Below are positions 14,494 through 29,553 of a stretch of 29,553 bases of DNA, one piece after another; position 1 is the stretch's first letter, and every line of letters begins with the position of its first letter. This stretch comes from a virus. The notes below the pieces were generated by a model, which did not search any database, was not told the DNA's origin, and saw only the letters and a program-made list of their open reading frames with translations. Position numbers and translations under genes: made by a program. The DNA lies in the IMG/VR virus record IMGVR_UViG_3300032579_001182, positions 1-29,553 of that record; one strand, 5' to 3'.

Positions 14494-14988
14494 ATGAAGG
14501 CCACAAGATCTTCTCCCGATCAAGTCTCGGCCGCTGATGGCGTCGCTGCGGATGAACTTCGACAGTTCATCGAGCGGCTCGAACGCCTTGAGGAGGAGAA
14601 GGCCGGCATCCTCGGCGACATCAAAGAGGTGTTCGCCGAAGCCAAGGGTCGAAAAGGCTTCGACACGAAGGCGATGCGGACCATCCTCCGCATCCGCAAG
14701 CAGGATCACTCCGAGCGCCAGGAGCAGGAGGCGATCCTTGAGCTCTACATGCAGGCCCTCGGCATGCTCGCGGACACGCCGCTCGGCCGTGCCGCTGTGA
14801 GCCGGGAGTTCGCCGAGGCCCGCATCACGATCTCAGGGCCCGGCATGGAGCCGGTCGAGACCACCGGCGCCGGCCTCGCCCGCGCATCGGCCTCGCTCGG
14901 CGTCGAGGCGCACGCGCAGCGCAACCGCCGCGGCGGCTCTGCCGCGCGCCAGATCGACCTCGAAGACGCCATCGCGGCGAGCCGGTGA
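14494..14988 (+). CDS. GapR-like (DUF2312) DNA-binding protein
   Basis: A 164-residue protein. Residues 20-91 match the GapR/DUF2312 family closely: [50 protein letters not shown] and [18 protein letters not shown]. GapR of alphaproteobacteria is a nucleoid-associated protein that encircles over-wound DNA and helps replication and transcription. Here the core is followed by a 70-residue extension ending [20 protein letters not shown], so the protein is clearly longer than host GapR (about 90 residues). It stands next to recombination and replication genes, so it may serve the phage replicon or compete with the host protein; that is inference. Confidence 0.88.
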
Positions 14989-15452: not shown

Positions 15453-15646
15453 CGTGGCTCCTGATGAGTGAGCGCCGCGTCCTCTACCGCGGCCCCTACG
15501 GGCAGGCGCTCGACGCCGCCGAGTCCTTCGAGCTGTGCGCGCGGTCGTTCCACCTGGACGGCACCGAGCTGACCCCGCGCCTCGCGCCCGGCGTGCGTCT
15601 CGTCCCGGAAGACATGATGCCGGTTCGCCGTCGGAGGGCTGCGTGA
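15449..15646 (+). CDS. Small phage protein, unknown function
   Basis: A 65-residue protein (TWLLMSERRVLYRGPYGQALDAAES...) with a GGAGG Shine-Dalgarno and an ATGA overlap with rusA. It looks like a compact beta-alpha unit: strand MSERRVLYRGPY, helix QALDAAESFELCAR, then VRLVPEDMMPV. No family recognised; the C-terminus is basic (RRRRAA). Confidence 0.68.
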   Translation: MTWLLMSERRVLYRGPYGQALDAAESFELCARSFHLDGTELTPRLAPGVRLVPEDMMPVRRRRAA

Positions 15647-16278
15647 GCGATTTCGCGACCCTGCCCCGCCGGCACTACCGCTGCATCGTGATGGACTCGC
15701 CGACCCGCTTCGTTGGCGGGACGAAGGGGCGTCCGCAGCACTACCCGCGGATGTCCGATCACCAGATCGCCGCCCTTCCGATTGGCGAATTCGCGCATCC
15801 GGACGGCTGCTTCCTCTTCTACTGGCACACGTCACCGAAGTTCTACCGGGCCCCGCGCGCCACCACGCGGTTGACCGCCCAGGAGATCGTCGAGGGCTAC
15901 GGCTTCCGCTATTCGGCCCGCGCCTTCCTCTGGGTGAAGACCGAGCGCGGCGATCAGGACTCGCTCTTCGCCTATCGGGATGGCCTCTTCATGGGCCAGG
16001 GCTACACCACCCGGAAGAACGCCGAGGACTGCCTCCTCTTCCGGCGCGGACGGCCGCAGCGCCTCTCCGCGTCCGTGCACGAGGTGATCCTCGCCCCGGT
16101 GCGCGAGCACAGCCGGAAGCCAGACGAGTTCTACCGGCGCGTCGAGCGCTTCTGCCCGGGCCCCTACCTCGAGATCTTCGCTCGCCAGTCGAGGCCGGGC
16201 TGGGATGCCTGGGGTAATGAATCGACGAAATTCGATCCGGCTGCCGAGGCGCTGCCCCTTCCTATGGCGGCGGAGTAG
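15643..16278 (+). CDS. MT-A70-family adenine methyltransferase with altered catalytic motif
   Basis: A 211-residue protein from GTG 15643 (GGAGG upstream, overlap with the previous stop). It follows the MT-A70 phage pattern: YRCIVMDSPTRF, QHYPRMSDHQIAALPIGEFA, CFLFYWHTSP, EGYGFRYSARAFLWVKT, MGQGYTTRKNAEDCLLFRRG, VILAPVREHSRKPDEFYRR, and PYLEIFARQSRPGWDAWGNE. The catalytic tetrad of N6-adenine methylation is normally DPPW; here it reads DSPT (residues about 18-21), with both the second Pro-position and the aromatic residue changed. The rest of the fold, including the SAM-side motifs near the C-terminus, is intact. It may be inactive, use another substrate, or bind DNA or SAM only. Confidence 0.85.
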   Translation: MSDFATLPRRHYRCIVMDSPTRFVGGTKGRPQHYPRMSDHQIAALPIGEFAHPDGCFLFYWHTSPKFYRAPRATTRLTAQEIVEGYGFRYSARAFLWVKTERGDQDSLFAYRDGLFMGQGYTTRKNAEDCLLFRRGRPQRLSASVHEVILAPVREHSRKPDEFYRRVERFCPGPYLEIFARQSRPGWDAWGNESTKFDPAAEALPLPMAAE

Positions 16279-16283
16279 CCGCC

Positions 16284-16997
16284 ATGGCCGTCACCGCAGA
16301 GATGATCGACGCCATGGTCGCCGCCGGCATCAGCCCGGAGCAGATCCTCGTCGTCGTTCGCTCCGAGCTGGCCCGCGAGCATGTCACGGCCGCCGAGGCG
16401 GAGCGGGCGCGCATCGAGGCGAACCGCGAGGGCAACCGGCTTCGGCAGGCTGCCTTCCGGGCGCGGCGTAACGCGCGTAACGGCGAACGTAACGGAAGTA
16501 ACGCCGATAACGCGAGTAACGGCGTTACGCCCCCTAAAAGGTCCCCCGCACCCCCTAAAACTACACCCCCGAAAGATTCCCCCTCGGACCCTAAAGGGTC
16601 CTCTGCCCCCAAGGGGGCGGACCGGCATCGGGGCACCCGCATCCCGGTCGATTTCGGTCTCCGTCCGGAAGCTCGGCAGGCCTGCCTCGATGCTGGCCTC
16701 GCCGGACGGGACATCGATGAGGCGCTGGCCGAGTTCCAGGATTTCTGGATCGGCGTGCCGGGTGTCCGCGGCATGAAGCTCGACTGGCTCGCCACGCTCC
16801 GGAACCGCCTCCGCGAATCCGTCCGCCGCACCGTCCGGCCCCGCGATGCCCCTGCCCGCCGCGGCACAGGCAACGGCTTCCTCGACGCTCTCCTCGACGA
16901 CCACGGGGGTTCCCATGACCCAGGTTCCAGCCACCACCAGCCCGAACACGGAAACGTCCATCGCCTCGCGGCCGGCGGCCGCAACTCGGGCCGGTGA
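16284..16997 (+). CDS. Putative replication protein (lambda-O-like position)
   Basis: A 237-residue protein in three parts: an N-terminal helical region (1-62) ending in basic LRQAAFRARRNARN; an Asn/Pro/Lys/Ser-rich linker (62-115); and a C-terminal unit with TRIPVDFGLRPEARQACLDAGL, ALAEFQDFW and GMKLDWLATLRNRLRE (118-178), like the DNA-binding ends of phage replication proteins that end in a Trp-x-x-Thr-x-Arg-Asn helix. The linker-coding DNA holds GTAACG repeats (16468-16528). Together with the following gene, this is the order of an origin-binding protein and helicase loader, as lambda O and P, but assignment rests on layout and weak similarity. The last 60 residues are low complexity and overlap the next gene. 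Confidence 0.6.
   Translation: MAVTAEMIDAMVAAGISPEQILVVVRSELAREHVTAAEAERARIEANREGNRLRQAAFRARRNARNGERNGSNADNASNGVTPPKRSPAPPKTTPPKDSPSDPKGSSAPKGADRHRGTRIPVDFGLRPEARQACLDAGLAGRDIDEALAEFQDFWIGVPGVRGMKLDWLATLRNRLRESVRRTVRPRDAPARRGTGNGFLDALLDDHGGSHDPGSSHHQPEHGNVHRLAAGGRNSGR
16468..16528. repeat. GTAACG iteron array, candidate replication origin
   Basis: Five exact GTAACG hexamers start at 16468, 16477, 16489, 16498 and 16516; a variant ATAACG is at 16507, and the inverse CGTTAC at 16523-16528. Spacing is 9, 12, 9, 9 and 9 bases. Three CCCTAAA copies follow within about 75 bases (near 16531, 16551 and 16589). Iterons inside the linker-coding part of the replication gene are how lambda's origin is arranged. 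Confidence 0.55.
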
Positions 16998-17664
16998 CGT
17001 GGTGGTCGCGATCTACCGAAACCGCCTGGACCGCAGCGGTGGCTATGGCGTGCCGCCCGCGATCCGCGCGGACCAGGCCCCGACGGCGGCGGACCGCGGC
17101 GTGATGACGGACCGCCTCGCCGCGCTCCGGGCCGGCCTCTCCGATGGTGAGGATTCGAGGGCCGGTCAGGTGGCGAAGCGCGACGTCGTCCTGGCGCTGC
17201 TGGCCGCGTTCCCGACCTTCGGCGTGGCAGCCGACGGCGCGCGAGCCACGGCGAACCTCTACGTCCGGGCTCTCGCCGAGCTGCCAACGTGGGCCGTTCG
17301 TGAGGCGACCGCTCGCTTCCTCGGGGGCAAGACCCTGCTCCCGTGGGCCGGCGAGCGCTGCCCGACGCCGCCGCAGCTCGCCGCGGAGACGAGGCGGTCG
17401 CTCGACGAGATCCACGCCGAGATCGCCGGGCTTGTGGAGGTCCTCGACGCGGTGCCGTACCGGCCGATCTCGGACGCCGAGCGCCAGAAGGTGCTCGACA
17501 ACATCGCGGCTGCGCCGAACAGCCTGCTCATCGCCGGCAGGGCGGAGCGCGGCTCCTCACCGGCGATCCCTCGTCCCTCTGACGCCGAGATCGTGGCGCC
17601 TCTCCGCACCCTGGACGTCTCGCACCTCATGGCGAGCCTCGACCGCAAGCGGGTGCCGGCATGA
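16915..17664 (+). CDS. Putative replication accessory protein (lambda-P-like position)
   Basis: A 249-residue protein. After a disordered Thr/Ser/Pro start (1-30), residues 83-160 give VAKRDVVLALLAAFPTFG, ATANLYVRALAELPTWAVREA and PWAGERCPTPPQLAAETR: a 'cells of Tyr-x-x-Leu-x-x-Leu-Pro, then a Pro-x-Pro-x-Leu' pattern that I associate with phage helicase-loader-like proteins. The C-terminal third is helical. It overlaps the replication-like gene upstream by 83 bases in another frame and the next gene by 4. The ATG at 16915 is the most likely start, although several Met codons follow. Helicase loading is an inference from position. Confidence 0.55.
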   Translation: MTQVPATTSPNTETSIASRPAAATRAGDVVVAIYRNRLDRSGGYGVPPAIRADQAPTAADRGVMTDRLAALRAGLSDGEDSRAGQVAKRDVVLALLAAFPTFGVAADGARATANLYVRALAELPTWAVREATARFLGGKTLLPWAGERCPTPPQLAAETRRSLDEIHAEIAGLVEVLDAVPYRPISDAERQKVLDNIAAAPNSLLIAGRAERGSSPAIPRPSDAEIVAPLRTLDVSHLMASLDRKRVPA

Positions 17665-20460: not shown

Positions 20461-20508
20461 CATCGGCCACCTAGACGCTAAAACATCAACAAAAACAGAG
20501 GCTTGCAG

Positions 20509-21360
20509 GTGGTTTCGGGCTCACGCCGTGTGGGCCGCCAGCGGGCCCGGAATAAAATCCAGACAGAGACGAAGGCAGCCAGCGCCGTCCGGGCGCTCGG
20601 GTACCTGCGGGTCTCGACGGAAGAGCAGGCCGCGACCGGCCACGGGCTTGAGGCGCAGGAGAAGGCGGTCCGCTCCTTCGCCGAGAGCCAGGGCTACGAG
20701 CTGATCGAGGTCCTCACCGACCCGGGTGTCTCGGGCGCGACCCGGCCCGCCGATCGCCCCGCCTTCGGACAGGCGCTGGAGCTCGCCGCGGCCAAGGCCT
20801 TCGACGTGCTGCTGGTGGCGAAGATCGACCGGCTGTCACGCGACATCCGCCACGCGATGACGACGGTCTCGGATCTGGCGGAGCAGCACGAGGTCGCGTT
20901 CCGGTCGGTCACGGAATCGGTGATCGACACATCGAACCCGATGGGCCGGACCTTCTTCTCGATCTTCGCCGGCATGGCAGAGAACGAGCGGTTCGTGATC
21001 CGGGACCGGACCGCCGGCGGCCGGGTGGCCAAGGCGGGCAAGGGCGGTTTCGCCGGGGGGCAGGCCCCCTACGGCTACACGAAGGACCTCGAAGGCGGCC
21101 TCCGGGTCGTCCCGGAGCAGGCGCGCATCGTCCGCCGGATCTACCAGGAGCGCCGCCGCAAGCGGACGCTCCAGGCCATCGCCGACGGCTTGAACGCCGA
21201 GGGCATCCCGGCGCCGAAGGGCGGCCGCTGGGCCGTCTCCACGGTCGCCTACGTGACCGACAACCCGAAATATCGCGGCGCGATCGAGTACCTGTTCCGC
21301 TGGAACGGGACCGAGACGCACGTCCTGCAGCCGGGCGCCCACGCCGCGATCATCGGCTGA
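20509..21360 (+). CDS. Serine recombinase, mid-sized
   Basis: A 283-residue serine site-specific recombinase. The resolvase-type catalytic domain spans about 28-170: GYLRVSTEEQ with nucleophile Ser36, LTDPGVSGATRPADRPAF, LLVAKIDRLSRDI, and NPMGRTFFSIFAGMAENER followed by RDRTAGGRVAKAGKGGF. Then comes the start of the recombinase domain: GGQAPYGYTKD, VVPEQARIVRRIYQERRRK, LQAIADGLNAEGIPAPKGGRW and VAYVTDNPKYRGAIEYLF. The long coiled-coil and zinc part of large serine integrases is missing, so it is intermediate between resolvases (about 190) and integrases (about 500). There is no ATG; GTG at 20509 has AGAGG 8 bases upstream and is preferred to TTG at 20503. Confidence 0.88.
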   Translation: MVSGSRRVGRQRARNKIQTETKAASAVRALGYLRVSTEEQAATGHGLEAQEKAVRSFAESQGYELIEVLTDPGVSGATRPADRPAFGQALELAAAKAFDVLLVAKIDRLSRDIRHAMTTVSDLAEQHEVAFRSVTESVIDTSNPMGRTFFSIFAGMAENERFVIRDRTAGGRVAKAGKGGFAGGQAPYGYTKDLEGGLRVVPEQARIVRRIYQERRRKRTLQAIADGLNAEGIPAPKGGRWAVSTVAYVTDNPKYRGAIEYLFRWNGTETHVLQPGAHAAIIG

Positions 21361-27539: not shown

Positions 27540-28034
27540 ATGTCCGACGAGAAGCCCCGCCGAGTCCGTCGGCCGGCCGTGCCGCGCAAGGCGCTCGACC
27601 TCATCGCGGACGGCTTAGCCGAACGGGTGCCGCCGCCCATTCCGCCCGGCCTCGGAGAAGGCCTCCTCTGCCGCGCTCGAACCTCCAGGAACCCACTTGC
27701 CATGTCTGCCGGTCACGAGGGGGGCGCCGACGCCAACCCCGAAATGCGCATCCTGATCGCCCTCGCGCGCATCGAGGAACGACAGACCTCGCTCGTGGAG
27801 GCCAACAAGGCCGCCCAATCGGCGGCGGAGGCGCGGCACACGAACGTCATGCAGGCGATCGCGACGTTCGTGCCGCGCTCGGAAATCGAGAAGGACAACA
27901 AGGCGCTGCACGAGCGGATCGACGGCGTCGAGAAGCGCCTCGACATGATGGACAAGCGGATCTGGGGGGCGCTCGCCGGCGCTGTCGGAGCGTTCGGCAC
28001 CGTGATCCTGACCAAGGTCGGCCTAATGCACTGA
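27540..28034 (+). CDS. Coiled-coil/TM protein, possible lysis accessory
   Basis: A 164-residue protein. Residues 1-54 are Pro/Arg-rich and disordered; residues 68-130 are a charged coiled coil (MRILIALARIEERQTSLVEANK..., EIEKDNKALHERIDGVEKRLDMMDKR); residues 138-160 are one membrane span (IWGALAGAVGAFGTVILTKV). XhlA-type lysis accessory proteins of phages have the coiled-coil plus C-terminal membrane layout. GAGG precedes the ATG at 27540; another in-frame ATG at 27702 would give a 110-residue form with only the coiled coil and span. A strong terminator follows. Confidence 0.65.
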   Translation: MSDEKPRRVRRPAVPRKALDLIADGLAERVPPPIPPGLGEGLLCRARTSRNPLAMSAGHEGGADANPEMRILIALARIEERQTSLVEANKAAQSAAEARHTNVMQAIATFVPRSEIEKDNKALHERIDGVEKRLDMMDKRIWGALAGAVGAFGTVILTKVGLMH

Positions 28035-28066
28035 CCCGCCGCTTCACATCCTACTTCACACCCTCG

Positions 28067-28095
28067 GGCGCCCTGGCTTCGGCCGGGGCGCCTTT
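28067..28095 (+). terminator. Strong rho-independent terminator with UUCG loop
   Basis: GGCGCCC-T-GGC (28067-28077), loop TTCG, GCC-G-GGGCGCC (28082-28092): eleven pairs with one T-G wobble and the very stable UUCG tetraloop, followed by TTT-CG-TCG-TTT. It ends the transcript that carries terminase, portal and lysis-like genes. Confidence 0.8.
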
Positions 28096-28396
28096 CGTCG
28101 TTTCGGGACTACCGGCACTTCCACACGGCGCCGTCAGTCCCTGATGGTCTGATACAAGCCGCGCACCAGCAGCTTGAACGGCCGTCGAACATTCAGGCCG
28201 CCCGGATCGCACAGCGGGCTTTCTTTTCCTCAACCAGATCGGGTATCAGAACCCCTGCAGGCGCACCCGTTGGTGGATGGCATCCTAGCACGTGAGTTGC
28301 TTGGTCGATAATGCCATTCAAGCCAACCCATTAGCCCGTCGTCGCGCCGACGTATTAGTGCTTTAGCTTTTATTGGTTCGAAATAGGAATGTCGCA
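28096..28396. other. A+T-richer gap before the methyltransferase gene
   Basis: About 300 bases without a convincing gene. A hairpin GGGACT/AGTCCC (28105-28110 and 28136-28141) has inner CGGC/GCCG pairs. Possible promoter elements for the next gene are TTAGCC-16-TATTAG near 28331-28358 and a lone GATAAT near 28307; both are weak. Base composition drops visibly against the phage genes to the left. Confidence 0.5.
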
Positions 28397-29137
28397 ATGA
28401 TGGATCTTGCCTCAGCTCAAACACTTATAAGCTCAGCGGATCCCGCGGTATTCAAACTCGACAGCGAGACCAGCACCTCAGACCGGCAAATGTTGCTGGC
28501 AGTCCAGAACATCGTGCGTCGCAATGTAGATAAATACGTTTATGTTGAGACCGGATCGTACATGGGAGGAACCCTTGTTCCTCACCTCTTGGACGAGCGC
28601 TGCTCGATGGTCATATCCATCGATCCTCGCCCGGACCTACAACCGGATGAGCGCAGCGTTACGTTCGATTACACCAGATCCAGCACAAAGCTTATGGTCG
28701 AGCGGCTAGAGACGGAGATCCCGCTCTCGTCGATGCTGAAGCTGCACACATTCGATTACGACGCATCGACGCTGCCGCCAGAGGCGAAGTCGACCGATGC
28801 AGATCTGTGCTTCATCGATGGCGAGCATACAAATCGAGCCGCGTTTAGCGACTTCATGAGCCTCTACAGCTTTACGAAAAAGGATTGCGTCTTCGTGTTT
28901 CACGACGCAAATCTCGTCATCGACGCCATTGCTAATGTGCAGGCGTTCTTGGCTTACGAGGGCGTCAGGTTCGAAGCCATGGTGCTGCCGAATGTACTCT
29001 CGGCAATCTTTATCGGAAAATATGCAACACTGGCCGCCCCGTTGAAGCGGCACGCGGGGAACATGGAAGAGTTCTACAGGGCCTCGAAAGAGAGCCTATG
29101 GAAGGAGATCGCCAACTCCCGGGCCCAGCAGGGCTAG
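28397..29137 (+). CDS. Class I SAM-dependent methyltransferase (Methyltransf_24-like), probable cargo gene
   Basis: A 246-residue protein with the marks of the Methyltransf_24/CmcI-like class: glycine-rich SAM loop VETGSYMGGTL (50-60), the ribose-binding acid in VISIDPRPD (Asp76), DADLCFIDGEHT (135-145) and VFVFHDANLV (165-174). Such enzymes methylate sugars, small molecules or glycans; the substrate is not visible. AGGA lies 8 bases before the ATG at 28397. Codon use and base composition are clearly more A+T-rich than in the rest of the window, with many AAA, ATT and CTT codons, and it is bracketed by a terminator and a large hairpin. This is the build of a moron/lysogenic-conversion gene or of a foreign chromosomal gene at the phage border. 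Confidence 0.82.
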   Translation: MMDLASAQTLISSADPAVFKLDSETSTSDRQMLLAVQNIVRRNVDKYVYVETGSYMGGTLVPHLLDERCSMVISIDPRPDLQPDERSVTFDYTRSSTKLMVERLETEIPLSSMLKLHTFDYDASTLPPEAKSTDADLCFIDGEHTNRAAFSDFMSLYSFTKKDCVFVFHDANLVIDAIANVQAFLAYEGVRFEAMVLPNVLSAIFIGKYATLAAPLKRHAGNMEEFYRASKESLWKEIANSRAQQG

Positions 29138-29155
29138 CTGCGCCGACGACGCTCC

Positions 29156-29194
29156 GCTACAACCCCGCCCGGTCGCACCGCGCGGGGTTGTAGC
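29156..29194. terminator. Long bidirectional hairpin between converging genes
   Basis: GCTACAACCCCGC (29156-29168) and GCGGGGTTGTAGC (29182-29194) are perfect 13-bp inverted repeats; the loop pairs again (CGGT/ACCG around CGC). It stands 18 bases after the methyltransferase stop and 2 bases before the end of the converging minus-strand gene. No T tract is present on either side, so it may work only in part as a terminator. Confidence 0.65.
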
Positions 29195-29196
29195 GC

Positions 29197-29553
29197 CTAT
29201 GACGGTCCGTGGTGCTTCCACCAATAGGCCGATGAGAGCAGCGTCTTCTCATCCGCGGTAGTGGCGTCTTTCCCCACGATCGCGTGGCTACGGATATCAA
29301 GCTCTCGCCGGATCGAGTCGCGCATACGATCCAGCATATCCTCGACGTAGCGGTCGCCCTCGAGCTCAGCCCTGAGCACGTCGATGCTCAGCCCGACATG
29401 GAACGCGGTCAGGTCCGTCTGATACATGCCTCGCCGGCCGATGGAGATCGCGCCAGCGGCATGCTTGTCGCGCTCTGTCTGCAGCTCGGCACGTAGCTGA
29501 TCCCGCTCCTCAATGAGCTTGCGGATCTCGTCCCTCAGGCCTTCGTCGCTCAC
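29197..29553 (-). CDS. Coiled-coil protein of unknown function at the window edge
   Basis: A 118-residue frame whose first codon is a GTG on the last three bases, so the start may be real or the gene may continue outside. Residues 1-34 form a charged coiled coil (LRDEIRKLIEERDQLRAELQ). The middle has GRRGMYQTDLTAFHVGLSIDVL, then a helical, acidic part (LEGDRYVEDMLDRMRDSIRRELDI) and a polar end (YWWKHHGPS). No family recognised. It converges on the methyltransferase gene. It is the first minus-strand gene after the whole rightward region, so it may belong to another module or to the chromosome. Confidence 0.6.
   Translation of the reverse strand: MSDEGLRDEIRKLIEERDQLRAELQTERDKHAAGAISIGRRGMYQTDLTAFHVGLSIDVLRAELEGDRYVEDMLDRMRDSIRRELDIRSHAIVGKDATTADEKTLLSSAYWWKHHGPS

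Follow-up and report, generated by a model that had tools for sequence, protein, structure and literature searches.

The virus record examined (IMGVR_UViG_3300032579_001182) was analysed over its full length of 29,553 bases, here called the window, and it is most closely related to four viral contigs and to a Methylobacterium gossipiicola locus. An open frame in its replication module, designated here the initiator gene (Table 1), encodes a 237 aa protein that matches phrog_3992 and phrog_2447, both of them phage replication families. Phage_rep_O, the family of lambda O, gave no match to this protein up to E = 1 and was absent from seven relatives searched up to E = 0.1, and a phrog_2447 search across 240 genomes found nothing. 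Relatives of the product of the next gene (P0002) occur at many loci related to the window initiator; family library searches with P0002 gave no match naming a function, and it is regarded as a candidate helicase-loading partner.

Upstream of the initiator gene, the module includes a GapR-like DNA-binding gene (14494-14988, + strand; PF10073, 1.2e-32), a RusA-like gene and, immediately before the initiator, an MT-A70 methylase gene (15643-16278, + strand; PF05063, 4e-21; phrog_359, 2.3e-55). In Bradyrhizobium phage ppBjS10J-1 a DUF2312 gene is likewise found immediately upstream of the initiator. The record also carries a tyrosine-type integrase (987-2183, - strand) and a serine-type recombinase (20503-21360, + strand), both judged from the translations alone. 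GC content drops to about 0.56-0.58 at 28001-29500, against about 0.69 across most of the window, and this stretch is possibly a recent insertion or cargo region.

Table 1 Features of the initiator locus, in window coordinates.
Feature	Position	Strand	Details
Initiator gene, 237 aa (P0001)	16284..16997	+	Open frame; phrog_3992 1.8e-6; phrog_2447 2.3e-5; invariant Arg and C-terminal positions in homologues
Segment coding residues 18-70, predicted single continuous helix	16335..16493	+	AlphaFold2 model, 14 sequences, high local confidence
Segment coding basic motif R54-Q55-A-A-F-R59, X1 = Q55	16443..16460	+	R59 invariant, R54 at least 90% in alignments A2 and A8
Iteron array	16468..16528	+	GTAACG 16468, 16477, 16489, 16498, 16516; ATAACG 16507; CGTTAC 16523-16528; 0/42 hexamer bases changed in L003
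C-run tract with three CCCTAAA	16524..16628	+	2 silent and 2 amino-acid differences from L003 in 35 codons; possible opening element
Segment coding DnaT-like C-terminal domain (residues 116-184)	16629..16835	+	Conserved in homologues; sub-threshold PF17948 in relatives; DnaT chains E 0.02-0.15; helices in model
Next gene (P0002), overlapping the initiator end	16915..17664	+	Relatives in many initiator loci; candidate helicase-loading partner

The AlphaFold2 model of the initiator predicts a long helix that terminates just past a basic motif, written here R-X1-x-x-x-R, followed by a linker of low confidence (pLDDT below 50 at residues 73-86 and 93-114) and then by a helical C-terminal domain. 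The pTM of this model, built from 14 sequences, is 0.34, and the relative placement of the domains cannot be read from it; Foldseek with the whole model gave no significant match. In an alignment of 17 homologues R59 is invariant and R54 is present in at least 90%. By its sequence the C-terminal domain appears DnaT-like, with matches to solved DnaT chains at the E values of Table 1 and PF17948 matches below the cut-off in relatives, while Pfam DnaT (PF17948) gave no match to the window protein itself.

Five GTAACG hexamers, one ATAACG and one inverted CGTTAC at mostly 9-base spacing had been reported in an earlier note on this DNA, and all were located in the central part of the initiator gene, with start-to-start distances along the array of 9, 12, 9, 9, 9 and 7 bases. 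Only three further matches to RTAACG lie elsewhere in the window. Over the whole window a total of 10 is no rarity, since 10 of 100 shuffles reach it; the clustering within the gene is rare, with six exact GTAACG/CGTTAC copies against a mean of 1.26 under synonymous codon permutation and only 4 of 20,000 permutations reaching six. The three CCCTAAA copies that the note had placed after the hexamers were also found (16532, 16553 and 16589); they are the only ones in the window, all lie at the 3' side of the array, and none of 100 shuffles reaches three. By these two measures, an array formed by chance was rejected. The tract beside the iterons is constrained as DNA and C-rich, with runs of five C, rather than AT-rich, and possibly serves as an opening element. 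The note had also assigned the repeats to a part coding for a low-complexity linker; the linker that they encode is mostly predicted with low confidence, although the segment for the predicted helix of residues 18-70 extends at its end into the first hexamers.

Comparison of the array with that of a relative whose initiator protein is 81% identical (L003) disclosed five substitutions, all of them between hexamers. None of the 42 hexamer bases is changed, against 5 of the 25 spacer bases (p 0.0055), and the four codons affected all alter the amino acid. Codons 61-115 show silent changes at 2 of 49 conserved residues, whereas codons 1-60 and 116-210 together show them at 48 of 125 (p 1.5e-6); codons 211-237 were left out of the comparison for their overlap with the next gene. 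The low level of silent change continues through the C-run tract, and the constrained element thus extends beyond the hexamers. The array is a DNA element under selection at the DNA level, not an Asn-rich peptide repeat. The note had entertained a coding repeat as its alternative, and a repeat kept for an Asn-rich or Val-Thr-rich peptide would suit the low complexity of the linker and the five of six intervals that are multiples of three. However, the hexamers stay constant while the peptide varies between the window and this relative, word counts exceed those of synonymous permutations in the window gene, in its homologues and in the second initiator family described below, and the words fall in several frames and on both strands; the coding repeat was rejected on these grounds and is hardly credible. 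The outcome that the note had named as contrary to an origin, namely relatives that keep the peptide with scrambled codons, is the reverse of what was found.

Twenty-one non-redundant homologues of the window protein were collected from bacterial genomes by protein alone, past the profile cut and outside the window's own family, after removal of the duplicates L151 and L171. In 10 of them GTNACG was clustered with the lowest P that 500 synonymous permutations allow (0.002); such a cluster was absent in the other 11, some of which carry other repeats, GCAACG in L144 and L152 and GGGACA in L140. The homologues and phage initiators with unrelated N-termini have the same or sister words (GTNACG, GWAACG, GCAACG) downstream of R-X1-x-x-x-R, in various frames and in either orientation. 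Other repeated words occupy this linker in initiators that lack the strict basic motif (GGGACA in L140 and L245), and repeats were noticed by eye in the translations of L458, L463 and L477-L480, again without the strict motif; the arrangement may therefore exceed the GNNACG class.

It was observed, before any further collection, that Gln or Thr, Ser and Val after the first Arg of the motif went with GTNACG, GCAACG and GAAACG, respectively. A second initiator family was then collected via its N-terminal domain with queries that stop at the motif and thus contain no iterons, and 139 non-redundant pattern matches yielded 125 genes with the family context. In these X1 is Val in 93, Ser or Ala in 20 and Gln or Thr in 12. 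Genes of the V class contain GAAACG 250 times against 69.4 in the synonymous null (maximum 87) and GTAACG 127 times against 28.1; GCAACG occurs 88 times in the S/A class (null 15.5, maximum 26), and GTGACG 42 times in the Q/T class (null 6.8, maximum 15). The words stand in several combinations of phase and strand, which argues against a conserved peptide as their cause, and their numbers on the two strands are similar.

X1 and the word covary. A tree was built from the domain without the motif (119 rows), and 114 rows were scored after five without a clear word had been set aside. The class of X1 equals the class of the word in 113 of these 114 genes (S/A: GCAACG; Q/T: GTGACG; V: GWAACG, a word broadened from GAAACG to GAAACG or GTAACG after inspection of the data), L425 being the exception. 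The fewest changes on the tree are 11 for the residue class over all rows, 9 by Fitch count over the 114 rows, and 10 for the word class. Simulated independent change did not reach 113 in any of 11,382 runs, the best being 103 with any relabelling allowed; sign tests on independent pairs pointed in one direction but were small, 2:0 and 4:0 (p 0.5 and 0.125). Among 95 alignment columns X1 is the best, accounting for 0.88 of the word-class entropy, with 0.60 for the next. A near-minimal natural pair, 73% identical over 83 residues, combines RSRKHR with GCAACG in L144 and RVRKHR with GAAACG in L373.

Inverted words in the second family often overlap by two bases, and 62 adjacent V-class words begin four bases apart, an arrangement that suggests binding by dimers. 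On the 3' side of the iterons, L144, L282, L373 and their relatives encode DTDTETE-like peptides almost solely in codons of the GATACA type, even in GC-rich genes. Over 42 genes of at least 55% GC, Thr in the DT/ET-repeat stretch is ACA in 137 of 138 cases and Asp is GAT in 79 of 81; outside the stretch the figures are 82 of 601 and 298 of 761. This codon bias points to a second, hidden DNA element in the second family, perhaps its opening region.

The original mapping of Val to GAAACG alone, applied to the 85 V genes found later, agrees in 55, whereas 18 favour GTAACG, eight tie, two favour GCAACG and two have none of the words. The S/A class is clean: each of its 17 genes has more GCAACG than other words, against 1 of 95 genes outside the class. 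The window itself combines X1 = Q with GTAACG, a word common to V and Q, and so provides no sharp test of the code. In a pre-registered test on loci found via the C-terminal domain (58 examined, four window-family loci having been set aside from the set), the strict motif was present in 8 and lacking in 50; three were scorable and all three agree. Outside the second family, in sets that contain loci met before and some retrieved by the GTAACG word itself, genes with the strict motif gave 10 agreements (two from the window's own family), no disagreement and four cases with too few words, and those with a relaxed motif gave 6 agreements, one disagreement and six with too few words. In the one disagreement (L191) the rule picked RSRAKR; the overlapping RTRRSR would agree, and the locus is still counted as a miss. 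A further 110 genes with a DnaT-like domain outside the second family are without such a motif. The N-terminal segments examined form 14 BLAST clusters without detectable mutual similarity, and their scorable members fit the code. A further genome search added no scorable locus, 10 of the 15 loci examined having no frame that passed the filter and five no motif. Named phages that fit are Acinetobacter phage Silvergun (V) and Bradyrhizobium phage ppBjS10J-1 (Q). Microcystis phage Mwe-JY07 counts against the code, having G as X1 in a motif that none of these words accompanies.

A scan for the GTAACG word returned at least 120 loci, many of them Gly/Asn or collagen-like repeats or lying outside initiator genes, and the total is therefore no count of origins. 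Among the matches listed, 22 non-redundant pairs of motif and array had X1 as V (8), Y (4), S, Q and R (2 each) and others (4); by reading, the ten V and Q pairs lie in initiator-like frames, one S pair (L033) is integrase-like and the rest are low-complexity. The corresponding 18 non-redundant pairs among the matches listed for GCAACG had R (7), L (3), S, Q and T (2 each), A (1) and D (1), nearly all in low-complexity repeats, and only L560 (S) among those matches resembled such an initiator. GTAACG words were also seen near the C-terminal end of large frames of helicase type, as judged by reading (L020, L027, L043), which are not such initiators, and as arrays in frames coding VTFVTF or VTLVTL with GTTAC words nearby (L014, L015, L024, L050, L054 and others).

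The covariation could arise if the words were recognised by the N-terminal domain, or by the initiator as a whole, and X1 only hitchhiked with the true determinant, in which case the array would still be an origin. The N-terminal domain of the second family is well folded in its model, and a structure search with that model gave only winged-helix-like matches, none of them significant, as would be expected of a DNA-binding domain; the motif forms a short helix after this domain, predicted with low confidence (62-71), and other columns correlate with the word as well. Yet X1 is by far the best column, L144 and L373 differ in class despite their 73% identity, and the same words follow the same motif in initiators whose N-termini form 14 clusters without detectable mutual similarity. 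Hitchhiking is for these reasons unlikely.

Recognition of the word, on which the covariation bears, is silent on what the bound complex does, so that the array might instead be an operator, bound by the protein or by another phage factor for transcription control of the replication genes. The sites nevertheless lie deep within the reading frame of a replication-type gene, whose product has a DnaT-like domain, and the adjoining second tract constrained as DNA fits the layout of the lambda origin better than that of an operator, which makes this explanation quite improbable. An element acting in the mRNA, through translation control or RNA binding, would be consistent with its place inside a transcribed gene; words on the two strands in similar numbers would, however, be different sequences to a reader of RNA, and such an element is given very little credence.

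It thus seems probable that the initiator binds the array as part of a lambda-like origin, which lies inside the initiator's gene and is read by its basic helix. The candidate origin proposed by the earlier note is in this respect supported, as far as sequences can tell, by hexamers conserved as DNA within a gene of replication families. We infer iteron binding, dimerisation, opening, helicase loading and origin activity along the following lines. The basic helix R-X1-x-x-x-R would be the part of the initiator that contacts the iterons within the gene encoding it, a step that rests on the covariation, and X1 would help to set the word, Gln or Thr specifying GTRACG, Val GWAACG and Ser or Ala GCAACG. 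The helix would probably bind as dimers, the iterons of relatives being often in inverted pairs. By analogy with lambda and from the anatomy of the locus, the neighbouring tract would open or stay single-stranded, and the DnaT-like domain together with the protein of the next gene would bring the host helicase.

Lambda is a known case of an origin within an initiator gene; there, iterons of about 18 bases lie in the middle of the O gene, in its linker-coding part, beside a second special tract and before the part for the C-terminal domain, with the P gene following. The window has the same order, with iterons mid-gene in linker-coding sequence, a second special tract, the C-terminal domain and a conserved gene in the position of P. 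The O/P layout suggested by the note is matched in these respects, but the protein has no match to the lambda O family and its C-terminal domain is DnaT-like. The words are of 6 rather than about 18 bases, and the DNA reader is likely to be the short basic helix coded just 5' of the array, after the N-terminal part, and not an N-terminal domain like that of lambda O.

DnaT is a restart protein, and its gene is to our knowledge without an origin array. The C-terminal domain of the window protein resembles, by sequence, DnaT and phage primosomal proteins (PF17948, phrog_3992, phrog_1408); unlike DnaT, the window gene has an origin-type array within it, and its protein has no Pfam DnaT match. In the bZIP proteins of eukaryotes a long helix has a basic stretch at one of its ends, and the sites are short and often palindromic. 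The initiators would be similar in the basic end of a long helix and in short, often palindromic sites, as in the Q/T-class gene L142, which holds GTGACGTCAC, but the order is reversed in the window protein, with the helix first and the basic end last, and there is no sign of common descent. In extrachromosomal mycobacterial prophages repA is reported to be required and sufficient for replication, and the authors suppose that the origin lies within or beside it; in contrast to the window, no repeated motifs are reported for the region examined there (PMC7157519). Apart from that study, mycobacterial phage proteins with RepA-like or replication initiation annotations show a weak similarity to the C-terminal part of the window protein (E about 1e-3).

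A wider proposal, to which we give somewhat less than an even chance, is that many phage initiators read an origin within their own gene by one basic helix, with X1 as a switch for the middle bases of GNNACG. Origin specificity would then shift by one substitution and matching changes in the nearby linker-coding sequence, half-sites would be bound by dimers in a reversed-order, bZIP-like manner, and the helix would have been joined to many unrelated N-terminal domains. A literature search of titles and abstract openings, in which subscription journals were thinly covered, recognised no paper on the covariation of X1 and word or on a shared basic helix. With the reader and its site within one gene, a few codons apart, the specificity of an origin could change inside a single recombination unit. 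Should X1 be the switch, sequence would allow prediction of the origin class for many uncultured phages, and the coevolution of initiator and origin would be directly testable on natural near-minimal pairs.
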